In this document: one piece after another, positions 2,220 through 15,606 of the stretch
How positions within the stretch are numbered: position 1 is the first letter of the stretch
Layout of the letters: each line of letters starts with the position of its first letter
From: a virus
Direction: 5' to 3' (one strand)
IMG/VR virus record: IMGVR_UViG_3300042288_000777
Location: 1-21,416 of that record
Length of the DNA stretch: 21,416 bases
Made by a program: the position numbers and the translations under genes
Notes under the pieces: generated by a model
Database searches by the model: none
Told to the model about the DNA's origin: nothing
The model's input: the letters and a program-made list of their open reading frames with translations, nothing else

Positions 2220-3122
2220 CTACCCCAGATCCATCCAGGCAAGCGTCAACGGCTGCCGTGGAGCAACTTCAACCCACAAGCCGGACGTGCGGAAGAAGAG
2301 CCTGCCAGACGAATCGTCAAACCATAGCGAGCCTGTGCCACCAGACGCCGGAGCTGTCGGGCCTGTGACGTAAAACTCCATGCTGCCGGCAGCGCCCTGC
2401 GGCCCCGTCACGCTAGGGCCGGTACTGCCCGTCGGGCCTGGCACAGTCGACGCCGCACCCGTGGGGCCTGTAACTGTTGAGGCGGCGCCAGCAGGGCCAG
2501 TATTACCCTGCGCGCCTGTGTCGCCGACGCTGCCCGATGGACCAGTGGCGCCGACGATCGACTGCCCGGCCTGGCCCGTTGGACCCGTGATAGATTGGCC
2601 GGCTGGTCCCGTGTCGCCGCGCTCGCCGGTTGCTCCACGCTCGCCAGTAGGACCTACAATGGATTGGCCCGCCTCGCCGGTCGGGCCGACAATTGACTCG
2701 CCTGCGGCGCCGGTAGGCCCGACGATTGATTGGCCGGCAGGGCCTGTCTCTCCTCGCTCTCCGGCAACGCCTGCGGCCCCAGCCAAGCCCTGCGGTCCGG
2801 TAGGCCCGACATCGCCGGCCACTCCCGCCGCACCCGTGCTACCAGCGGCCCCCGCCACACCCGCCGGCCCAGTTGGCCCCTGAATGGCAAACGACGACCA
2901 GGAGGTCAGGTCAGATTCCAACTGGTAGTAGCCGTCTACGCTCGCCACGTAGACGAGCATCCCAGCCTCTCGACGCAGGGCTGGGATGGCGTCGCGCTCC
3001 TCGAGCGTGGCAACGCTCCGCAAGCCGCCTTTTCCGTACTGCGCCAGATGGGACGGGTACGCATCAGTTGTCGAAAACGGCACCACAGGCGCGATGACGT
3101 TCTGGCCCTTTATCTCTGCCAT
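2220..3122 (-). CDS. Collagen-like (Gly-X-Y repeat) phage fibre protein
   Basis: The product has 300 residues. I chose the ATG at 3122 because it forms a TGATG overlap with the upstream stop and has GAGGTG 5 nt before it; the GTG at 3125 is the alternative. Residues 1-80 form an N-terminal module (KGGLRSVATLEERDAIPALRREAGMLVYVASVDGYYQL) that I know from phage fibre proteins. Residues ~82-247 are Gly-X-Y triplets rich in GPT, GPA and GAA, broken periodically by GQSIV/GESIV pentads. Residues ~248-300 form a non-collagenous tail (GSLWFDDSSGRLFFRTSGLWVEV), probably a trimerisation or tip domain. Collagen-like trimers are common rigid spacers in phage fibres. The high GC and repetition make the region prone to recombination and length change. 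Confidence 0.9.
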   Translation of the reverse strand: MAEIKGQNVIAPVVPFSTTDAYPSHLAQYGKGGLRSVATLEERDAIPALRREAGMLVYVASVDGYYQLESDLTSWSSFAIQGPTGPAGVAGAAGSTGAAGVAGDVGPTGPQGLAGAAGVAGERGETGPAGQSIVGPTGAAGESIVGPTGEAGQSIVGPTGERGATGERGDTGPAGQSITGPTGQAGQSIVGATGPSGSVGDTGAQGNTGPAGAASTVTGPTGAASTVPGPTGSTGPSVTGPQGAAGSMEFYVTGPTAPASGGTGSLWFDDSSGRLFFRTSGLWVEVAPRQPLTLAWMDLG

Positions 3123-3811
3123 CACGCCACCTCAAGGTTGAGCGTGCCTGTAACCGCGTAGGTCGAGCGGTAGAGCGTGTAGGAGCGTGCCGCCTGGCCC
3201 GCGAACGTGATGGACCGCTGCGTTGTCTCCCAGGCCGTCGAGACGATGCCGTTCACCTTGAGCGTTGGCGCTCCGAAAGACGTCGGCAGGACCACGTAGA
3301 CGTACGCCGAGGCCGGTGCCAGCGTGCGAGACAACGCCCGGCCAGTGGACTGGTCAACCGCCAGCGAGGCAATCACCTGCCCGTCCGTAATCGTCGTGCC
3401 GGCAAATGTTCCAACCGCCCGTGCCAGCAGCGTGCCAGGAATCACAGCGCTCTCCGACTCCGCCACCGTGTGGATCTTCACGGACGTGCGAAACGCATCT
3501 GCGTAGTGCCACAGAGGCACGCCGCGAGGAGACGACACCGAATAGGTCGTAGAAACGTCTCCGTAGGTTTCGACAATTTTGTCGCCGCGCTCAGGCTCGC
3601 TGTAGGGCAGCGTGCCGACCTTCACGATGTAGTCGCGGCTTTCCCACTGCTCGACGACGCCTGACTGCGTCGCCGCTTCAAACATCGACCTGCCGATGCA
3701 GGCCGTGATCTGGGTGGACGTGTTGCCACGTACGTAGGTGCATGGCACCGCTGCCGACTCTCGGAGCTGGTCTGTCAGCCAGGCGGCACCTGTGCGCAGC
3801 ATGTCGGCCAC
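3122..3811 (-). CDS. Head-tail connector-like virion protein with extra C-terminal beta domain
   Basis: The product has 229 residues. I chose the GTG at 3811 because AAGGAG sits 8 nt before it; the ATG two codons in (3802) and the TTG at 3835 are alternatives. Residues ~3-120 (MLRTGAAWLTDQLRESAA, VTYxRG-like CTYVRGN, YIVKVGTLP, PERGDKIVETYGDVSTTYSV, PLWHYADAFRTSVKIHT) follow the layout of small phage connector or head-completion proteins with a 'GD.I....Y.V' core. Residues ~130-229 add an Ala/Thr/Val-rich beta domain without recognised motifs. The position just after capsid and cement genes fits a head-completion role. Family membership is inferred from pattern, not certain. Confidence 0.65.
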   Translation of the reverse strand: MADMLRTGAAWLTDQLRESAAVPCTYVRGNTSTQITACIGRSMFEAATQSGVVEQWESRDYIVKVGTLPYSEPERGDKIVETYGDVSTTYSVSSPRGVPLWHYADAFRTSVKIHTVAESESAVIPGTLLARAVGTFAGTTITDGQVIASLAVDQSTGRALSRTLAPASAYVYVVLPTSFGAPTLKVNGIVSTAWETTQRSITFAGQAARSYTLYRSTYAVTGTLNLEVA

Positions 3812-4288: not shown

Positions 4289-6112
4289 TCACGTCGCGGA
4301 GTCGCACTTCACGCCGGCGAGGTATTCGGCCTTGGCCACGCCAAAGTCGAAGTAGCCACGCATCTGCACGCCGAGCGTGTTGAAGTCGGCTTCCGCCGTC
4401 TCCACGATCGGGCTTTGCACGCCGTTGAGGAAAGCCACCTCCATCACCGGCATGTCGGCCGGCGACGCGAGGAGGTAGTAGTCGGTCGTGTTGGTCAGGT
4501 AGGTCGAGGCGACCACCTGATACCGACCGGCCAAGACGTTCCGATCAGGCTGGCCACCGGTCGCACCGCTCTGGATGAGAGTGCTCCCCATAATCTCGGC
4601 CGCAGACAGCTCGAGGTCGACCGGCACAAGCAGGATCCGGGGCTCCACCGCGACGGGGTTGCCGTCGGGATCTTTGAGCTTGCGGAACTTCGTGGCCAGC
4701 GCCTTCAGGTTCGCCAGCGACAGTGCCAGCGAGCCAGCCGACAGGTTGCCACGACCGTTCGTGAAGAACGACGCATCGTCCACGAAGTCGGCCCAAAACA
4801 CGTCGTTCAGCTTCAGCGCACCACCACGGCCGATCCGCTGCGGAACAGCGGTCAGAGCGCCGAGGTCGTCGTTGATGAGGTCCGTACGGGTGACGGAGGT
4901 CATGATCCCGTAGGTCTCGGCACTGATCGTCCGCGACTCCTCACTGGCCGCCGCGTTCTTGAGCTCGCCACCGTTGGCGACCTTGTCGAACTTGAAACCA
5001 CCGTTGAGCCGGTAGCTCGTCAGCGTCTTGAAGTCGTTGACCGAACGGACAGACGAGATCGACCGCCACGCGCTCTCGACGCCGTTGAACCCGGCGAGGA
5101 GGAACTTGTTGGCGGTGTTGCTCAGGATGCCGCTGATGGAGTGAGTCGCCCACGCCGCAGCCAGAATCGGCCGGAGCGTGGAGGCATTGAGCCGACGCGG
5201 GCCGTCGTAGCCATTGGCCACGGCAGCCTGCACGATCACTTCACCGAGCGACAGCTCGCGACGCGCCTTGTGGGCCGCCTCGAGCACCTTGCCGTCGTAC
5301 TGGCTCTCGACGCCTGGCAGGCCGCCCTGCAGAGCGAACGACGCTTCGATCACCTCCGCCGTCGGAGCCACGTTGGCCACGACGTGAACCGCAGGAGCAG
5401 TGGGCCGCTCGTCGCGGGTCGCAAGGAGCTTTTCCATGTTGGACACCTTCTGGGTGAGGTCGGCGATCAGCTTGGTGTGATCGACCGTATTGGTGGCTTC
5501 CACGGCGACACTCGCCGGGGCTTCCACAGCGGCAGCCACAATCGGCTCCTCTGCGGGCGTCTTGGTGGCGTTATCCGCCATGGGGTGCTCCTCGTCGGCT
5601 TCCGCCGCGATGGCGACGCTGGTCTGCGAATCAGCGCCAAGAGTTACAAACGAAACCTCCCGCAGACTGGAGGCTTTGACGACTCGAAGCGGCCCGACAT
5701 GGGCAGCTCCGTTGACGGTGGTGGCGACGTCTGCATCAAACTTCTGATGCCGTCGCACATCGGCGCCGACAGACGCCTGAAACTGGTAGCCGGCCTCTGC
5801 CAGGGCGGCGACCTGGTCGGCGTTGCCGTTCCGGGCAAGGATCTCGCACTCAACGATGAGCTGCCCGCCCTCGAGCTTCGGGGTGCCCTGGCCGAGGATC
5901 GACCCGAGCGAGTAGTCGTGCCCCAGCACTACCGGCACCGTCGCCGGGAGTTGCATCCCGGCCATGTCGATGATGACAGGCTCTCGGCTCCACCCCTGGC
6001 GGATGGGAGCGCCGGTGTAGGCCACGATGCGGAACTTCTTCGGGCCGGCGGCAGACTCGCCATCCGCAGCCCGCAGAAACTCAACGCCGCTGTCAATCGT
6101 GATTTTGTTCAT
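4289..6112 (-). CDS. Prohead serine protease fused to major capsid protein
   Basis: The product has 607 residues, counted from the ATG at 6112, which has GGAG about 10 nt upstream and starts 1 nt after the mini-ORF stop. Residues ~1-175 look like an S78-type prohead protease: VVLGHDYSLG (His65), QASVGADV (Ser114) and SLREVSFVTLGA (Glu152) are candidate catalytic residues. Residues ~178-235 are Ala/Glu-rich with a predicted coiled coil (DLTQKVSNMEKLLATRDE), like a scaffold or delta domain. Residues ~250-607 resemble the Mu gpT-type capsid family with an HK97 fold (LINDDLGALTAVPQRIGRGGALKLNDVFWADF, then ILLVPVDLE, LAGRYQVVASTYL, GVQSPIVETAEAD). Protease, scaffold and shell are usually separate genes, so this is a polyprotein. 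A strong internal ribosome site precedes residue 178. Confidence 0.9.
   Translation of the reverse strand: MNKITIDSGVEFLRAADGESAAGPKKFRIVAYTGAPIRQGWSREPVIIDMAGMQLPATVPVVLGHDYSLGSILGQGTPKLEGGQLIVECEILARNGNADQVAALAEAGYQFQASVGADVRRHQKFDADVATTVNGAAHVGPLRVVKASSLREVSFVTLGADSQTSVAIAAEADEEHPMADNATKTPAEEPIVAAAVEAPASVAVEATNTVDHTKLIADLTQKVSNMEKLLATRDERPTAPAVHVVANVAPTAEVIEASFALQGGLPGVESQYDGKVLEAAHKARRELSLGEVIVQAAVANGYDGPRRLNASTLRPILAAAWATHSISGILSNTANKFLLAGFNGVESAWRSISSVRSVNDFKTLTSYRLNGGFKFDKVANGGELKNAAASEESRTISAETYGIMTSVTRTDLINDDLGALTAVPQRIGRGGALKLNDVFWADFVDDASFFTNGRGNLSAGSLALSLANLKALATKFRKLKDPDGNPVAVEPRILLVPVDLELSAAEIMGSTLIQSGATGGQPDRNVLAGRYQVVASTYLTNTTDYYLLASPADMPVMEVAFLNGVQSPIVETAEADFNTLGVQMRGYFDFGVAKAEYLAGVKCDSAT
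5579..5593 (-). promoter_or_regulatory. Internal ribosome-binding site and in-frame start inside the protease-capsid gene
   Basis: GAGGAG (5588-5593) lies 6 nt before an in-frame ATG at 5581. The ATG opens MADNATKTPAEEP at the end of the protease domain. Initiation here would make a separate 430-residue scaffold-plus-capsid protein without protease, much as lambda makes Nu3 from inside C. The match in strength and spacing to the window's other ribosome sites is good; whether it is used is inference. Confidence 0.55.
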
Positions 6113-6113
6113 G

Positions 6114-6170
6114 TCACAGAAACTCCACGATGCCATCGAGGTCGTCGAACTCGTCGTACTCGTCAAACAT
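6114..6170 (-). CDS. 18-residue acidic mini-ORF between portal and protease-capsid genes
   Basis: The peptide MFDEYDEFDDLDGIVEFL is encoded from an ATG at 6170 that shares a TGATG overlap with the portal stop. GGAGG lies 7 nt upstream, a better ribosome site than most genes here. It stops 1 nt before the protease-capsid ATG. Eight of its 18 residues are Asp or Glu and none is Lys or Arg, with aromatic and aliphatic residues spaced between them. It may be a real micropeptide (for example one that binds portal or capsid), or a leader that hands ribosomes to the capsid gene. I do not recognise a family. Confidence 0.5.
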   Translation of the reverse strand: MFDEYDEFDDLDGIVEFL

Positions 6171-7878: not shown

Positions 7879-8292
7879 TCAGACTGCGACCCAGTCGCCG
7901 CCACGTCGCTCGTACACCACAGGCGTCAGCCCCAGACGGCGAGCGATGGCGGCTGTCGGCTCCGCAAACACTGCGACCGGCTTGGTGCGGTCAATGACGC
8001 CAGACGACGCGAGCATCGACGCCAGTGTGAACGCTTTACCCTCGCGACGGTGTCGCTCATCAACGAACATTTCAAGCGTCTGCTGGTCGCGCCAGACGTG
8101 AGAACACGCCCACCCAATCAAGCAGCCGTCCTTGCGCCAAACGGCCACCGGCGTGGAGCTGGAGCCCTCACCACGCAGGCACGACAAAATTTCAAGCTGC
8201 CACTCGCTCTCAGGCTTTGTCAGACGCCACACGATTCCGACTGCATCGCGCGGCTCCAATCCGTCGACGGTCGTCAAGACGATGTCATTCAT
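7879..8292 (-). CDS. GNAT-like acetyltransferase-fold protein
   Basis: The product has 137 residues from the ATG at 8292, which overlaps the terminase stop as ATGA. The core reads VAVWRKDGCLIGWACSHVWRDQQTLEMFVDERHRREGKAFTLASMLASSGVIDRTKPVAVFAEPTAAIARRLGLTPV. This matches the GNAT layout: a strand pair, a strand ending LEMFVDERHRREGKA (the acetyl-CoA-binding 'R..G.G/A' loop position), helix TLASMLA, a strand VAVFAE and helix AIARRLGL. The acceptor is unknown. GNAT-like proteins occur among phage packaging genes, where they may modify host or virion proteins. The cofactor loop RHRREGKA is not a perfect Q/RxxGxG/A, so activity is uncertain. Confidence 0.65.
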   Translation of the reverse strand: MNDIVLTTVDGLEPRDAVGIVWRLTKPESEWQLEILSCLRGEGSSSTPVAVWRKDGCLIGWACSHVWRDQQTLEMFVDERHRREGKAFTLASMLASSGVIDRTKPVAVFAEPTAAIARRLGLTPVVYERRGGDWVAV

Positions 8293-11200
8293 GCTCCGAG
8301 CCTTTTTACTTGGATGATCTTTCGGCCGTTGGCAGCCTTTGGAATTGAGATCTTTCGCCGCTGTCGCCCGCCGGCCTCGGTAGCAGTCGGCTGCACGCCG
8401 GCAACGCTCGCAGCCACCGCCGCACCGACAAGGCCGTCTAGCCAGTGGTTTTCCTTGCCCGCCGACTTCCACTCGTCGACCACTCGCCCACGTGCCTCGG
8501 TCCTCACAGGGAACTCGCTCGTCAGATGCTGCAGCAGCAACTCGTGGTCGCCCTGGTGCAGCGTGATCGTCTCCGGCGCTCCGACGCCCATGCGAAGCCG
8601 AGCCGCCACGAAGGATTTCCAGAAATTCGTATCAAACGTCACGGATCGCTGGCCGACGCTGATCTGGCCGATACGCCAGTTGAGCCCAAGCTTGTCGCCA
8701 CGGGCGCCCTTCTCGGCGAGCGGCTGGCTTGACGCACCGATACCCTTGCCGTGCGACGGGTAGATGGACGCTGTGAACGGCGACTGCCTGCAAAACGTCC
8801 GCACCGTCGTCGTCGACCGGCCCCAGTTGGCGTCCACGAGCAGACGGTCAATCCGCACAGCGGCGCCGTCTTCACGTTTCCAGTCACGGCCGAGAAGTAG
8901 TTCAACGGTCTTATCGAGCCCGGCCCGCAGCGCCGCCTCAAATCCCTGCTTGCTGGCGTTGGCAAGCGTCTTCTTTGCACTCGACGCCTCAAACACGCTC
9001 GCCGCCTGGTCAGGGTAGGTGCCGTACGCAACGACGTGGCCACCGAACGACTCGCCCCACGAGCACACCAGCCAGTACAGGAGACGCTCCTGCACGTCGA
9101 CGAACGCCGTCAGCGTGTTGTGCCCGAGCGGTACAACGCCACGAGGCAGCGGGACAACCTTGGTCGCCAGGTGCTTGCGGTCCAGTTTCTCGCTCGAGAT
9201 GTCGTCGGCGAGCGGTTGATTCTGGTACTCGGCGAAGAACGCCGCCTCTCCACGGTCGATGCGGAGATTCCAGGCATGGTGGATCGCCGACAGTTCGTCC
9301 TCGTGCTTCCGCTCCGGCCACGCCACGCGCGAGCCGGCGTCCATTGCCGCCTGCCGCTCGCGGTAGAACTCGTCGGCCGCTTCCGTCCCTTCGCCGCTAC
9401 GCTGGCCCTGCCTGCGGATCTCGGCGTATTGCCCCCAGAGGTCTTCGTCGGTCGGCCACTCGTAAACCAACTGCGACCGCTCGCCCTGCCACGCAGGATG
9501 CTTCGTGCGGTCCAAGAGCCTGTCGGCCAGGTCGTCAGGGCGGATGACCGTGATGGTGCAAAGCCCAGACATCCGTACGCCCGGCCCGCCGAGCCCGAGG
9601 ATGGCCCCAGACAACACACGCTCGCGTGTTGCGACCTGCGAAGGGCTGGCCGCACTTTCGTCTGTCTGTGGGTCGTCGCATAGCACGAGCGACGGCCGCA
9701 CCGTGACACCATCCGGCCGGGTGTGCTTCACGCCACGGATGCGTCCCGTGATGCCGGCCACGCGAACAGCCGCCCCAGCGGATGCGGCACCGTCAATCCA
9801 GGGCAGCGTGATCTTGTCCGCCAGCCACTCCATGTGCGTCGGCTCCCCGCCGCACGTCTGCCCACGAGCTCGAGCGGAGATCCCTTCAAGGGCTCGGATA
9901 GGCCAGCACGCCGCCGGGAAGTCCTCGGCTAGCAGGTCGTTCTGCTCCAGGTGCGACTTGATGCTGTCCAACATCCCGCCCGCAATGGCGGCATCGGCGC
10001 CGACCAACATGACGAACGGACGATGTCCGTAAAGCATGGCCCAGAGACATGCCCACTCGCATAGCGTCGAGTTGTGTGTGGGGATCATCGCACGGCCGCA
10101 CAGATACAGGCGACTCGGAGAATCCACCTGAACGCACCTTACTGGAACGCTATCAACCTTGCGTATGGCAACGATGCGACGTGTTGCAGAGATCCTGGCT
10201 CTGCTTGTCGTTACTTGCCTAGCTGCTTTTCGCGGAAGCGCAAAAACTATCCTGCCGTCAGTAGGCGAGAATGTGACTCTGTAGTACGGCTTCCCATTGA
10301 TCAGCTTTGTGCGGTAGCGGCACTTGTATCCAAGAGACGCCACCAACTCCATCGCATTGTCCCGCAGGGCTGGCAGCTTTGTGACGTACTCAGCAAAGCG
10401 ACCTTTCTTTTCAATTGAGCCGTCCGTGTCCATAAGCCCACGGAGCAGTTCCATGCGAGATTCTTCGCTTGCACGCATGTATTGCGGCGGAATGTGCTTG
10501 TTTCCGAGCACGCCAATCCACGCCAGCCTGCATTTCAGGCTCACGCTTTTGACGTCAAAGCCAAATGTGCCGCAATTACCAAGCACACTGTCAACGGCAC
10601 CGGATGTGCAGCCAAGTTCTTTCTTGATCTGCGACCTAGACCATCCCATTGCGTACCGTTGCCGAACCCTTTGCTCAAGCATGAGCCTGGCGTGAGTCGC
10701 CAGCTTTCTTCCTGTTCCAATTGTGTAGCACGCTGCATTTGAAACCTTGCTTTTTGAACACGCCCCGATGTTTTCGTGCCTGGAAAGTATTTTGAGCATT
10801 TCATCTGCATCTGAATCTCCGATAGTTATGCGATTGCCGGCTGCGTTTCCGTCTCCGAGCCATGCGCCAAGCACATACGGTGAAACCACAAACTTGCCGT
10901 CGCTACCAGCGAGAGCCCCAGCCACTGGGATTGTGTACCGAAATTCGCTCCATCCTCGCTTTGAGGAAAGTACGACACGCGACGCCATGTCCTCAGTCCG
11001 CAACGTAAGCGGGTTGCGTCTACTGAAACGGTCTTGAACAGTCCACAGGTGATCACCACAGCAGGTAATCACCTCGCCGTCGTCAAACTCCACTTCGTAG
11101 CACTCACGACCGGTCATTACGGCAGTCGCAGCCACTACCTTGCACGGCTTGCCATGTTCGTCGTAGAGCGAGTCGCCAACTGCTACCTTGCCCATAGCCG

Positions 11201-11543
11201 TCCACCCAGACGGGGTCGGCAGTGGAGTTGTCAGGGCTAGCGCCTTTCCCGAGCCGCGAGGCATGGCGAACGCGAACAACTCGCCGGCCAGTACGGCACG
11301 CTGAATCTTGTCGATGGCTCGCAGATGGTCGGGCGACCAGGCCAGCGGGAACGACTCGGCACCGTACGTCTCACAGAAGGCCCGGAAGTCATCGCGGCAC
11401 TGCTTGTGACGCTTGGCGTCTGCGACCGGCGGGATGTCGCCAATGTCGCGGCCGGCGGCAGAGGTGCGACGGTTCCACGAGGCCGACTGCGTCTTCCTGG
11501 CCTGGTAGGTCGATTGCTGGGATGGCTTGGCCTTGCGGCCCAT
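8289..11543 (-). CDS. terL: Phage terminase large subunit interrupted by an intein
   Basis: The precursor has 1084 residues from the ATG at 11543 (an in-frame GTG two codons upstream is the alternative; neither has a strong Shine-Dalgarno). Removing the 391-residue intein rejoins MPRGSGK to STLCEWACLWAML, restoring a Walker A motif in a mature protein of about 693 residues. The C-extein has a Walker B-like SLVLCDDPQTDES and an RNase H-like nuclease with candidate acidic residues in FVDVQERLLYWLVC, IDRLLVDANWGRS and NHWLDGLVGAAVA. TerL hydrolyses ATP to pump DNA through the portal and cuts the concatemer. It may be GpA-like; I leave the subfamily open. No obvious small terminase lies next to it. 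It follows the hairpin-rich gap at 11550-11671. Confidence 0.95.
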   Translation of the reverse strand: MGRKAKPSQQSTYQARKTQSASWNRRTSAAGRDIGDIPPVADAKRHKQCRDDFRAFCETYGAESFPLAWSPDHLRAIDKIQRAVLAGELFAFAMPRGSGKALALTTPLPTPSGWTAMGKVAVGDSLYDEHGKPCKVVAATAVMTGRECYEVEFDDGEVITCCGDHLWTVQDRFSRRNPLTLRTEDMASRVVLSSKRGWSEFRYTIPVAGALAGSDGKFVVSPYVLGAWLGDGNAAGNRITIGDSDADEMLKILSRHENIGACSKSKVSNAACYTIGTGRKLATHARLMLEQRVRQRYAMGWSRSQIKKELGCTSGAVDSVLGNCGTFGFDVKSVSLKCRLAWIGVLGNKHIPPQYMRASEESRMELLRGLMDTDGSIEKKGRFAEYVTKLPALRDNAMELVASLGYKCRYRTKLINGKPYYRVTFSPTDGRIVFALPRKAARQVTTSRARISATRRIVAIRKVDSVPVRCVQVDSPSRLYLCGRAMIPTHNSTLCEWACLWAMLYGHRPFVMLVGADAAIAGGMLDSIKSHLEQNDLLAEDFPAACWPIRALEGISARARGQTCGGEPTHMEWLADKITLPWIDGAASAGAAVRVAGITGRIRGVKHTRPDGVTVRPSLVLCDDPQTDESAASPSQVATRERVLSGAILGLGGPGVRMSGLCTITVIRPDDLADRLLDRTKHPAWQGERSQLVYEWPTDEDLWGQYAEIRRQGQRSGEGTEAADEFYRERQAAMDAGSRVAWPERKHEDELSAIHHAWNLRIDRGEAAFFAEYQNQPLADDISSEKLDRKHLATKVVPLPRGVVPLGHNTLTAFVDVQERLLYWLVCSWGESFGGHVVAYGTYPDQAASVFEASSAKKTLANASKQGFEAALRAGLDKTVELLLGRDWKREDGAAVRIDRLLVDANWGRSTTTVRTFCRQSPFTASIYPSHGKGIGASSQPLAEKGARGDKLGLNWRIGQISVGQRSVTFDTNFWKSFVAARLRMGVGAPETITLHQGDHELLLQHLTSEFPVRTEARGRVVDEWKSAGKENHWLDGLVGAAVAASVAGVQPTATEAGGRQRRKISIPKAANGRKIIQVKRLGA
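10071..11243 (-). other. Class 3 intein (Ala1, WCT motif) with LAGLIDADG homing endonuclease, in terL
   Basis: The intein has 391 residues between Lys and Ser of the terminase Walker A (GSGK|ST). It starts ALALTTPLPTPSGWTAMGKV with Ala, not Cys or Ser, and ends MIPTHN before Ser+1. The three class 3 marker residues are present: Trp67 (two after block-B His65, in DHLW), Cys370 in block F (VRCVQVD) and Thr389 before His390-Asn391. In class 3 inteins the block-F Cys, not residue 1, starts splicing. Endonuclease motifs LGAWLGDG (~125-132) and RGLMDTDG (~268-275) mark a LAGLIDADG domain. The DNA is visibly less GC-rich than the flanking extein, consistent with later arrival. Splicing and homing activity are inferred. 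Confidence 0.92.
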
Positions 11544-11571
11544 AGGCACCGCTCACGATCTATTTATTTCT

Positions 11572-12678: not shown

Positions 12679-12981
12679 TCAAGCAAGCTGACGAAACGAC
12701 GTGCCGTCCCACTGCAGGTGCATGATCTCAACCGGCACTCGCTGCTCCTGCGTGACTCGCTTGGCACGTAGCTCGGCAGCCATCTGCAGAATTTCTTCCT
12801 CTGTCGGCTCGTAGTCCACCGGGCGAAACTGCCGCCGCTTTCGTTTCGGGAGCCCGTGTTGTCGCCGCAGAGACGAAATGTAAGCCTCGGCGCAGCCAAG
12901 GGCGGAGGAGATCTCCGTATGGGTCTTGCCCTCCGCCCAGAGCTGCCGCAGAAGCTCGACGTCGATGGTCGTGCGTGTCAT
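12679..12981 (-). CDS. Small helix-turn-helix DNA-binding protein
   Basis: The product has 100 residues. Residues ~6-45 (VELLRQLWAEGKTHTEISSALGCAEAYISSLRRQHGLPKRKRR) form a resolvase/GcrA-type helix-turn-helix with a basic tail. The rest (YEPTEEEILQMAAELRAKR) is a charged helix, and LQWDGTSFRQLA ends the protein. It may be a transcription regulator of the late genes or a small-terminase-like DNA recogniser; sequence alone does not decide. The ATG at 12981 overlaps the sliding-clamp stop as TGATG, so the two are translationally coupled. A TTGACA sits over its stop codon. Confidence 0.75.
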   Translation of the reverse strand: MTRTTIDVELLRQLWAEGKTHTEISSALGCAEAYISSLRRQHGLPKRKRRQFRPVDYEPTEEEILQMAAELRAKRVTQEQRVPVEIMHLQWDGTSFRQLA

Positions 12982-14099
12982 CAGTCCGCCATTGGCATGA
13001 TGACGCCGGTGTTATCGCCACAACGCAGAATCACCGCCGACTGTGCGTCCACGGCTTCGACTTCGACTTCAGGCTCTGCCTCGCTGTCGATGCCGTTCAG
13101 CCATTGCTGCACGAACAGCGGGTCAAGTTTCACAGTCGCCTTGTCGCCGGCTTCCACGACGTCGCAGGTGACGCTGCTTTCGCCTTTCTCGGCACTTTGC
13201 CCGTGAAGCCAGATGCCGTCGCCAGAAAACACGAACTGCACGCCCTTGCTTTCCTCGCTGGTCACGATGGCTGCGGCCCGCGTCGCCGCGAGCAGATCCG
13301 CACGGCTGACCGTCGTGGCCTTGGCGTCACGTTCCGGCAGCGTGTCGCGCCACCGAGGGTAGCGACCGTCGATCAGACGAGCCGTGACGGTAGCGTTACC
13401 CACCGTAGCGACGATCTCGTTCTTGGTTGCCTCAATCTGCACGCTAACATCACCAGCTGACGCAGCCAGCCGAGCGATGATTGCCATCGCACGAGCCGGG
13501 ACGAGCGTCTGCGAATCGTCAACAGCCAAGTCGTGCTCGCAGTTCACGCACGACAGCCGGCGACCGTCCGTGGCGACGAACGTGACCACCTCGCCTTTAA
13601 TTTCCACGAGCACGGCGCCTAGTGCGTAGCGGCTCGACTCGTCGTCAACGGAAAACACGACGCCTTTCACCGCACGGCAGAACTGATCGACCGGGAGCCG
13701 TGTAACGGGTTTCGCACCGTCCACGTTCCAGGCTGGATACTCGCTGGCGTCTTCCGTCGGCAGCGTCCACTCAGCCGTGCGTGCCTTGATGACGCACGAC
13801 GACTCGTCAGGCGTGATCGTGATCTCGTCGCCGGAAAAACTGTTGAGGATGGCGGAAAAACGATCCCTCGGCAAAAGGAAATTGACCCCGGGGGGGGCAT
13901 TTTCCAACGTGACGTCGATACGGATATCTCCGTCACTCCCAGAAAGCACCCCGCCCGATAGGAGCACGGATTGGTAGATGGGCCGTGGCGACCGGCTCGG
14001 CACCGCCTGGCCCACGGCGTTGAGCGCCGCCTTGAGTTCCTGTGCCGGTAGGACGATGCCACCAGCCCGCTTCTTTCGTTCCTTCGTTGCTGTCGTCAT
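12981..14099 (-). CDS. dnaN: Phage-encoded DNA polymerase III beta subunit-like sliding clamp
   Basis: The product has 372 residues, close to E. coli DnaN (366). I chose the ATG at 14099 because AAGGA lies 8 nt upstream. The three-domain clamp pattern is visible: LPAQELKAALNAVGQAVPSRSPRPIYQSVLL (domain 1), SEYPAWNVDGAKPVTRLPVDQFCRAVKGVVFSVDDESSRYALGAVLVEI with VATDGRRLSCV (domain 2), and RYPRWRDTLPERDAKATTVSRADLLAATRAAAIVTSEESKGVQFVF (domain 3). The C-terminus NTGVIMPMAD matches the conserved clamp tail. The clamp ring tethers polymerase to DNA. No polymerase or clamp loader is in the window, so it may recruit the host replisome or work with one encoded elsewhere. Confidence 0.93.
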   Translation of the reverse strand: MTTATKERKKRAGGIVLPAQELKAALNAVGQAVPSRSPRPIYQSVLLSGGVLSGSDGDIRIDVTLENAPPGVNFLLPRDRFSAILNSFSGDEITITPDESSCVIKARTAEWTLPTEDASEYPAWNVDGAKPVTRLPVDQFCRAVKGVVFSVDDESSRYALGAVLVEIKGEVVTFVATDGRRLSCVNCEHDLAVDDSQTLVPARAMAIIARLAASAGDVSVQIEATKNEIVATVGNATVTARLIDGRYPRWRDTLPERDAKATTVSRADLLAATRAAAIVTSEESKGVQFVFSGDGIWLHGQSAEKGESSVTCDVVEAGDKATVKLDPLFVQQWLNGIDSEAEPEVEVEAVDAQSAVILRCGDNTGVIMPMAD

Positions 14100-14205
14100 G
14101 TCTGGAATCCTTTCGCAGAGAAACACCAATCAAAACGCCCACCGCGAACGTCGCGGCGTGCAGTACAGAGCCAATGCAGATGAGGGTGAATGTGGATGTC
14201 GTCAT
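13933..14205 (-). CDS. Small single-span membrane protein overlapping the sliding-clamp gene
   Basis: The product has 90 residues from an ATG at 14205, with the excellent ribosome site GGAGGTGGGGCTATG and an ATGA overlap with the gene before it. Residues ~5-30 (FTLICIGSVLHAATFAVGVLIGVSL) form one hydrophobic helix followed by RKDSRHDD, so it probably sits in the inner membrane with the C-terminus inside. The frame continues 167 nt into the sliding-clamp gene; the overlapping tail is rich in Gly, Pro and Arg and looks unstructured, as in an overprinted region. The functional part may be only the first ~40 residues. The role is unknown. Confidence 0.6.
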   Translation of the reverse strand: MTTSTFTLICIGSVLHAATFAVGVLIGVSLRKDSRHDDSNEGTKEAGWWHRPTGTGTQGGAQRRGPGGAEPVATAHLPIRAPIGRGAFWE

Positions 14206-14387
14206 AGCCCCACCTCCGTCCTTTCGATAACGCTCGCCAGCCTGCAGCAGCGGCCGAGAGTCACCTCTAGCGTTCTCGCTGCCGTCTCAAGCAGCAGTCT
14301 GTCGTCGTCCGACACGTCGTCGTCCCACGCACGATCCATGAGCGCCTGCACGACGTCGGACGGTGGCGGAAGGTGGATGTAGTTCAT
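14202..14387 (-). CDS. Small acidic protein, unknown function
   Basis: The product has 61 residues from the ATG at 14387, with GGAGGTG 4 nt upstream and an ATGA overlap with the LexA-like gene. The sequence MNYIHLPPPSDVVQALMDRAWDDDVSDDDRLLLETAARTLEVTLGRCCRLASVI is mostly helical and acidic, with a repeated Asp cluster and no DNA-binding or catalytic motif. It is coupled to both neighbours by 4-nt overlaps and has good ribosome sites on either side, which supports real translation. I do not recognise a family. Confidence 0.65.
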   Translation of the reverse strand: MNYIHLPPPSDVVQALMDRAWDDDVSDDDRLLLETAARTLEVTLGRCCRLASVIERTEVGL

Positions 14388-14647
14388 GCGGCACCTCCCG
14401 CGAGCGACTTGCCCAGAGGCGTCAGACGCAGCGTGCGGGCCTGGCCCTTCTCCCACTCGACCAGCCCCTTGCGTCGGAGCGATTGCAGGTGCGTGGTCGA
14501 TGCAGCCTGCGGGCTGCGCCAGCCGTAGTGGTGGCCGATTTGCTTGTACGTCGGTGCGTACCCGTGGGTATCCGAAAAGCCGTCAATCCACTGGAGGATG
14601 TCCAGTTGGCGCGGCGTCAGTAGGGGCAGGTCATTCGTCGTGGTCAT
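14384..14647 (-). CDS. LexA-type winged-helix DNA-binding protein without protease domain
   Basis: The product has 87 residues from the ATG at 14647, with the near-perfect Shine-Dalgarno AGGAGGTGAA 3 nt upstream. Residues ~9-82 (LTPRQLDILQWIDGFSDTHGYAPTYKQIGHHYGWRSPQAASTTHLQSLRRKGLVEWEKGQARTLRLTPLG) follow the LexA N-terminal domain almost segment for segment, including the SPxAAxxHLxxLxRKG recognition region. The S24 autocleavage domain of LexA and CI repressors is absent. It could be a phage regulator, a SOS-box competitor, or a DNA-binding partner of the replisome gene it overlaps (ATGA). Self-cleavage on DNA damage is not possible for this protein alone. Confidence 0.85.
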   Translation of the reverse strand: MTTTNDLPLLTPRQLDILQWIDGFSDTHGYAPTYKQIGHHYGWRSPQAASTTHLQSLRRKGLVEWEKGQARTLRLTPLGKSLAGGAA

Positions 14648-15606
14648 GGGTTCACCTCCTCCGTGAGTTTGATGGACGCCGCAAGCGCGGCGACCTCGGC
14701 TGGTCGTCGGTATGGGGCCGGCTTCATGCCGGCGAACTCCTTGGCTTTTCGCTCGAGGGCTGCGCGTCTGGCCGAGTCGTCGCCGTCTGGTCTGCGCCCA
14801 GGCTCGCGGTTGGTGCCGCCACGGTCCTGGGAGCGTGTCAGCCACGACACCACGAAACGCCGCCAGTTGCTCTTGTGAGCCTTTGCGGGGTTCGCCCTGA
14901 GCCATGAGGTGGCTTTGGCGAGTTCTGCCGTTAAATCGCACGCAGGGTACGCCTGTCGCCATTCCTGCCGGTCGGCGTCAGTGATTCCCTGCCACCCTGC
15001 GTCAGCAGACCACGAGACTGCGTCGTGGGGCTGCGAGCGTTTCCGCCGCTTCGGCGGTTCGCTCGTAGCTACCTGCGCAGCAGGTGTATTTATCTTCTCT
15101 TCTCTTCTCTTCTCTTCTGGGCGTGACGTTTCGTGACGCGCCGTGACGCGCCCGGAATCCTTCTGCCGCTCACGGTATGCCCTCGCCCGGTCGGCGTCAG
15201 ACTTAGGCTCGGCACGCAGTTTGTTTGGCGTGTTGTGCTCCGAAAAGTTCGGGAAAACAAGCCCTTTTTCGTCGTGCAAGGCTACCCAGCCAACCTCCAG
15301 CATTGCCTCGCCAAACCCAGGCACACCGACGATGTCGTCAATGTCGGAAAGCTCCATGTATGGCACATGGCAGTCCTCGCCAAGAACGTCATTTAGGGCA
15401 AACCAAAGCTCTGTGAGCGCACACGCCGTGACGCGCGTCACGTTTTCGAACGTGACGATCTCCGTGACGTTCGTGACGCAAGCGTGACGCACGGGGTCGG
15501 CCCACCAGTTCATGAACTCCCTAGAGCCAGACAGGTGACGGGCGACCGCGACGGTCTTGGGCCACTGCCTCATGCCTCGTCGGATCTTGATCCAATCAAC
15601 GGCCAC
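14644..15606 (-). CDS. Replisome-organizer-like replication initiator
   Basis: The product has 320 residues from a GTG at 15606, which has AGGAG about 8 nt upstream. The N-terminal part (residues 1-130) looks like the winged-helix of phage replisome organizers (SREFMNWWADPV, LTELWFALNDVL, AMLEVGWVALHDEKGLVFPNFSEHN). A charged linker AYRERQKDSGRVTARHETSRPEEKRREEKINTP follows, then a helical domain (DREWRQAYPA-like DADRQEWRQAYPACD, ATSWLRANPAKAHKSNWRRFVVSWL) that resembles the C-terminal part of such proteins. The valine-threonine rich stretch CVTNVTEIVTFENVTRVTA is encoded by repeated CGTGACG boxes. Such proteins bind an origin inside their own gene and load the helicase. The exact family was not confirmed. 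Confidence 0.8.
   Translation of the reverse strand: MAVDWIKIRRGMRQWPKTVAVARHLSGSREFMNWWADPVRHACVTNVTEIVTFENVTRVTACALTELWFALNDVLGEDCHVPYMELSDIDDIVGVPGFGEAMLEVGWVALHDEKGLVFPNFSEHNTPNKLRAEPKSDADRARAYRERQKDSGRVTARHETSRPEEKRREEKINTPAAQVATSEPPKRRKRSQPHDAVSWSADAGWQGITDADRQEWRQAYPACDLTAELAKATSWLRANPAKAHKSNWRRFVVSWLTRSQDRGGTNREPGRRPDGDDSARRAALERKAKEFAGMKPAPYRRPAEVAALAASIKLTEEVNP
15094..15118. repeat. (CTTCT)5 pentanucleotide repeat in the replisome gene
   Basis: Five exact copies of CTTCT run head to tail, encoding EEKRREEK on the minus strand. The strand asymmetry is total: pure pyrimidine on plus, pure purine on minus. The unit is not a multiple of three, so gain or loss of one unit would shift the reading frame. 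It sits 4 nt from the first CGTGACG cluster, next to the A/T-rich TGTATTTAT, where an unwinding element would lie. Confidence 0.9.
15122..15148. repeat. Iteron-like CGTGACG cluster 1
   Basis: CGTGACG occurs at 15122-15128, 15132-15138 and 15142-15148, exactly 10 bp apart, about one helical turn. All face the same way and lie beside the (CTTCT)5 and A/T-rich tract. This regular phasing on one DNA face is typical of initiator-binding iterons. Confidence 0.7.
15427..15489. repeat. Iteron-like CGTGACG cluster 2
   Basis: CGTGACG occurs at 15427, 15451, 15463, 15472 and 15483, with an inverted copy CGTCACG at 15436-15442. That gives six copies in 63 bp within the replisome gene. The first direct and the inverted copy form a near-palindrome (CGTGACGCGCGTCACG). 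With cluster 1 this makes nine copies within 370 bp. Confidence 0.7.

Follow-up and report, generated by a model that had tools for sequence, protein, structure and literature searches.

Full-length class 3 intein carrying a LAGLIDADG endonuclease in the terminase Walker A motif of an IMG/VR phage

In IMG/VR virus record IMGVR_UViG_3300042288_000777, the gene for the large subunit of a gpA-type terminase is interrupted in its Walker A motif by an insert. We are highly confident that this insert is a class 3 intein of full length that carries a LAGLIDADG endonuclease within it. The intein most likely splices by the class 3 route, and its endonuclease most likely spreads the element. The observed basis of this reading is sequence anatomy, homology, predicted fold, empty alleles, and a near-identical intein in diverged alleles. 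Table 1 gives the positions of all features in the window, by which we mean the whole stretch of DNA analysed (positions 1 to 21,416 of the record, 21,416 nucleotides).

Table 1. Features of the interrupted terminase gene, numbered by position in the window.
Feature	Position	Strand	Basis
Terminase large subunit precursor gene	8289..11549	minus	1086 aa including intein; PHROG, Pfam
N-extein, 102 aa, Walker A end ...AMPRGSGK	11244..11549	minus	Uninterrupted relatives
Class 3 intein, 391 aa, A1 to N391	10071..11243	minus	Class 3 alignment, relatives, model
Hint splicing domain, N-terminal half, about residues 1-106	10926..11243	minus	Alignment to 6rix/6bs8, model
His65, block B, predicted class 3 catalytic triad base	11049..11051	minus	Invariant in 18 relatives; numbered as His65 of MchDnaB1
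Trp67, WCT W (B:12)	11043..11045	minus	Relatives, MchDnaB1 comparison
LAGLIDADG homing endonuclease domain, about residues 107-345	10209..10925	minus	Pfam LAGLIDADG_3 1.6e-06; PI-SceI-like fold
LAGLIDADG motif 1, PYVLGAWLGDGN, catalytic Asp131	10845..10880	minus	Relatives
Three-helix (HTH-like) module between LAGLIDADG motifs, residues 184-222	10578..10694	minus	Model; weak Pfam HTH_58
LAGLIDADG motif 2, ELLRGLMDTDGSI, catalytic Asp274	10416..10454	minus	Relatives
Hint splicing domain, C-terminal part, about residues 346-391, blocks F and G	10071..10208	minus	Class 3 alignment, model
Cys370, WCT C (F:4), expected branch-point nucleophile	10134..10136	minus	Relatives, MchDnaB1 comparison
Thr389-His390-Asn391: WCT T (G:5), penultimate His, terminal Asn	10071..10079	minus	Relatives, MchDnaB1 comparison
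C-extein, 593 aa, first residues S+1-T+2 of Walker A	8289..10070	minus	Uninterrupted relatives
gpA-type terminase nuclease domain in C-extein	8391..9197	minus	Pfam PF20454, precursor residues 785-1053

The intein reads from 11243 down to 10071 as exactly 391 codons with no stop, and the plus strand of the same interval holds no coding frame. Insertion falls between the Lys and the Ser of Walker A (GSGK|ST), with ...FAFAMPRGSGK before and STLCEWACL... after, and the landmarks follow in the order A1-LALTTPLPTPSGW...(H65)LW67...C370...T389-H390-N391. Natural uninterrupted alleles reading ...AMPRGSGK-STLCEWACL... fix the splice borders independently, and the intein frame is therefore not due to chance. 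An earlier sequence-only reading had placed an intein here, at 10071-11243 inside GSGK|ST, and both the 391-residue in-frame insert and the uninterrupted alleles bear it out. Its residue numbers, GC contrast (54.6% in the intein versus 65.5% in the extein) and spliced length (~693) are all correct; the strand, which it left unstated, is minus.

Translation of the terminase precursor can begin at GTG 11549 or alternatively at ATG 11543, which gives a spliced protein of 695 or 693 aa, respectively. The gene matches the PHROG profile for the terminase large subunit (3.5e-58). Pfam gave no match over the ATPase part of the terminase, for which there are PHROG terminase matches only; GpA_nuclease (PF20454) matched with 5.4e-22 (score 78.8 versus a cut-off of 22.5). 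The predicted product has a gpA endonuclease domain C-terminal of a Walker A ATPase, as in a gpA-type (phage lambda-like) terminase. A portal protein and then a head protease/major capsid frame come after the terminase, in the usual order; the head maturation protease and major capsid protein are apparently fused in one 625-residue frame (4289-6166, minus strand). The minus strand of the window also encodes a DNA polymerase III beta sliding clamp (12981-14129; all three Pfam domains, PHROG 2.4e-57), a protein whose C-terminal half matches the LexA DNA-binding domain but which has no match to the LexA protease (14384-14962; PF01726, 3.3e-17), and a protein of collagen-like Gly-X-Y repeats (2220-3125; PF01391).

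GenBank phage matches to the C-extein reach only ~27-28% identity over half its length. The best 80 prokaryotic relatives of the terminase (L099-L178), none of which carries a P-loop intein, are 52-57% identical and come mostly from Phycisphaerae and other Planctomycetota metagenome-assembled genomes (MAGs). Because the best prokaryotic relatives are mostly from there, the host of the phage probably belongs to the Phycisphaerae/Planctomycetota group. Many Phycisphaerae MAGs hold several terminase copies per genome (e.g. L110, L112 and L156 in isolate ACE_PLA8), and these multi-copy planctomycete relatives look like prophages or prophage remnants.

A search with the C-extein returned 54 viral loci, 45 of which were examined at the junction. 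One, L002, carries the intein, L037 starts downstream, and the other 43 read GSGK-ST or an equivalent with no intein; in all of these 43, as in all 80 prokaryotic relatives, the junction is exactly GK-S/T. L038, the closest of the long empty alleles, shares 97.3% identity with the window in the C-extein and 95% in the N-extein. Between the two carriers, the intein has a single mismatch in 1173 nt, whereas the 450 nt of C-extein that follow have 47 (Fisher p = 4e-26). Identity steps at the 3' edge of the intein, with the first mismatch at +9, and just past this border the window equals the empty L038 for 105 bases. On the N-extein side, the window and L002 remain highly identical for ~100-200 bases before identity falls, and both carriers have GGAAAG as the final two N-extein codons where L038 has GGCAAA. 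Such a pattern is expected if the intein moved recently, with short co-conversion, into alleles that had already diverged, and we infer a role for the endonuclease in that transfer. The proposal that the element is still mobile therefore has better evidence than was first offered for it, namely empty alleles at 97% identity and a near-identical intein in alleles whose adjacent DNA is ~10% diverged. Low GC, put forward as a sign of recent arrival, does not serve: the diverged intein of L003, 68% identical to ours, has an equal GC content (0.55, in a terminase of 0.65-0.67), and we rejected GC content as evidence on this point.

General recombination instead of homing could have carried the intein, and its patchy distribution would then reflect loss and recombination among phages. 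Identity is mosaic along the whole region among the window, L002 and L038, and the window and L002 share a second stretch of 100% identity at 8725-9324. Against this, the intein is the longest near-identical stretch between the two carriers and identity steps at its edge; moreover, because the 43 IMG/VR and 80 prokaryotic junctions are empty, a recent gain accounts for the distribution more parsimoniously than repeated scarless loss would. We consider transfer by general recombination unlikely. All contigs are metagenome assemblies, and the intein border may include a chimera.

With two LAGLIDADG motifs and both Asp131 and Asp274 kept, the sequence also agrees with the earlier claim of a full LAGLIDADG endonuclease, and the model of the intein superposes on PI-SceI over its whole length (326 residues, Z 27). 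An intein in decay, splicing poorly or with its nuclease lost, would leave the gene dependent on co-infecting intact copies. Inactive class 3 inteins are known, such as Arth_1007, which is without Cys F:4 (PMC3196547). Here, however, every catalytic residue is retained along with both LAGLIDADG Asp residues, the intein of the second contig differs by one nucleotide, and the terminase frame is intact. Comparison with L003 points in the same direction: amino-acid identity of 70-76% in the Hint and LAGLIDADG parts, set against saturated synonymous sites, reads as purifying selection. We used this identity contrast in place of dN/dS for the endonuclease, which is not computable versus L003 at a pS of >0.75. 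Decay thus seems very improbable.

The module between the two motifs consists, in the model, of helices at residues 184-198, 203-210 and 214-222. Its HTH-like assignment rests on the model because the sequence match to HTH_58 is weak (E = 0.05, below cut-off, residues 177-225). The window and L003 are 41.5% identical over the module, compared to 70% over the rest of the endonuclease and 76% over the splicing domain, and by this comparison the module is the fastest-changing part of the intein. In other class 3 phage inteins the intermotif space holds a three-helix HTH-like module (L003), a Cys-rich ribbon-like one (L005 and L010) or none (L012 and L018). Accessory HTH-like domains also occur in other intein endonucleases, TliVMA and PI-TkoII (PMC8966425). 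It is tempting to speculate that class 3 terminase inteins swap small DNA-binding modules at one intermotif point, thereby retuning their target, and that this intein is now sweeping uncultured phages of Phycisphaerae hosts, a scenario we find possible and put forward only tentatively.

Class 3 inteins are defined by the absence of a nucleophile at position 1 together with Trp at B:12, Cys at F:4 and Thr at G:5, the WCT set (PMC3196547). Our intein has Ala at position 1 in place of a Cys, Ser or Thr nucleophile, as do 6rix and 6bs8, and in the alignment its Trp67, Cys370 and Thr389 fall on the WCT positions of MchDnaB1. In MchDnaB1, His65 and Trp67 accompany Cys124 and Thr143, and crystallography found a protease-like Cys-His-Thr triad (PMC7664689). 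His65, Trp67, Cys370, Thr389, His390 and Asn391 are among the invariant columns in an alignment of 18 viral inteins, and the WCT set is complete in every one of the nine GenBank phage relatives sampled.

When the intein was scanned against Pfam/NCBIfam, LAGLIDADG_3 (PF14528) was the sole match above its cut-off and no Hint family passed; we therefore assigned the class from alignments with solved inteins. The best phmmer matches among solved structures were MchDnaB1 (6rix, 4e-35) and MsmDnaB1 (6bs8, 2.1e-31), while gp41-1, a class 1 intein engineered with WCT, gave 7.5e-4 and 0.022 in the same search. The AlphaFold model of the intein (pLDDT 88.7) agrees: its splicing domain lies within 1.1-1.7 A of solved class 3 inteins at 54-55% identity, with 6bs8_C at 1.1 A over 125 residues (54% identity) versus 23-25% identity for gp41-1. 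One alternative is a class 2-like (KlbA) intein, or one derived from class 1, whose N-terminal nucleophile was lost; Ser+1 would then attack directly, with Cys370 as a bystander. Such an intein could likewise have Ala at position 1, as class 2 does, and mechanism is not readable from sequence, yet we find this scarcely credible given a complete WCT set invariant in 18 relatives, closest solved relatives that are class 3, and a class 3 clade reported as monophyletic with class 2 reported in KlbA alone (PMC3196547). The class 3 call made from the letters alone holds on those same grounds.

How the class 3 intein would act can be outlined by analogy. The insert divides the ATP-binding loop of the precursor, and the packaging motor would be inactive until the intein splices out. 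The class 3 route with its two branched intermediates (PMC5222942) is the best-supported one, with chemistry taken from class 3 inteins already characterised. With assistance from His65 and Thr389, and with Trp67 packed nearby, Cys370 would attack the bond between the Lys of GSGK and Ala1, forming the first branched intermediate. The N-extein would then pass to Ser+1, cyclisation of Asn391 would release the intein, and an acyl shift would restore GSGKST. As for the DNA, the endonuclease most likely cleaves the P-loop sequence of terminase alleles that lack the insert; repair of the break with the filled allele as template would then spread the element.

Among 50,697 phage records, 489 hold a relative of the intein, and most of the 60 best matches listed fall within genes annotated as terminase. 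With such numbers, and nine of nine sampled GenBank phages with the WCT set, the description of class 3 inteins as far rarer than class 1 is misleading for phages; class 3 may still be a minority of inteins overall. Two side cases came up among the phage sequences. In L094 (Acidovorax phage ACF1), a terminase insert after GPARTGK has an apparent Cys start and keeps Trp, Cys F:4 and Thr; Asn occupies the position aligned to Asp131, and the endonuclease may be inactive. In L021 and L022, a phage P-loop protein (GKGNGK|SP) holds a 151-residue class 3 mini-intein that has no endonuclease; this naturally compact intein is 53% identical to the splicing domain of the window intein.

Terminase Walker A insertions, mycobacteriophage class 3 inteins and tests of terminase intein endonucleases have already been published (PMC5050341), and a literature search combining class 3 with "terminase large subunit" found no paper. 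With phage class 3 inteins and terminase P-loop inteins already documented, the understanding of inteins is unchanged. What the window adds is a full-length class 3 intein with a complete predicted endonuclease, empty alleles at 97% identity, and a gpA-type terminase host gene, in phages related to Phycisphaerae prophages. With this set of filled and empty alleles, class 3 homing can be tested cleanly, and the intein itself is a candidate new class 3 splicing tool.

Among known systems, MchDnaB1 (6rix, 6riy) and MsmDnaB1 (6bs8) share with the window intein the Hint fold, Ala1, His65, Trp67, Cys F:4, Thr G:5 and the final His-Asn. Both are mini-inteins inserted at the P-loop of a cellular helicase, whereas the window intein has an intact-looking LAGLIDADG endonuclease and resides in a phage terminase. 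The mycobacteriophage TerL1-a and TerL1-b inteins likewise occupy the Walker A site of terminase large subunits; TerL1-a lies between Lys and Thr, the 'classic' P-loop site, and the TerL1-b endonuclease has been tested against its inteinless partner allele (PMC5050341). Their hosts are of the terminase_1 or terminase_6 type, unlike the window terminase with its gpA-type nuclease end, and the mycobacteriophage records among the matches listed have inteins ~31-33% identical to ours. Terminase inteins of Vibrio phage 489E54-1, Stenotrophomonas phage SOVA965 and Clavibacter phage CMP1 resemble it in having a complete WCT set and a site after the P-loop GK, at 30-34% overall identity.

Closer to home, the IMG/VR loci L002, L003 and L004 have the window's intein, site and terminase family, with intein identities of 99.7% for L002 and 68% for L003; L003 and L004 differ in their diverged three-helix module (41.5% versus 70-76% for the rest). 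Finally, the intein-nested endonucleases PI-SceI and TliVMA have the same Hint and LAGLIDADG architecture (Z 22-27) and also bear accessory DNA-binding domains. These two are class 1, whereas the window intein is placed in class 3 and has its three-helix module between its two LAGLIDADG motifs.
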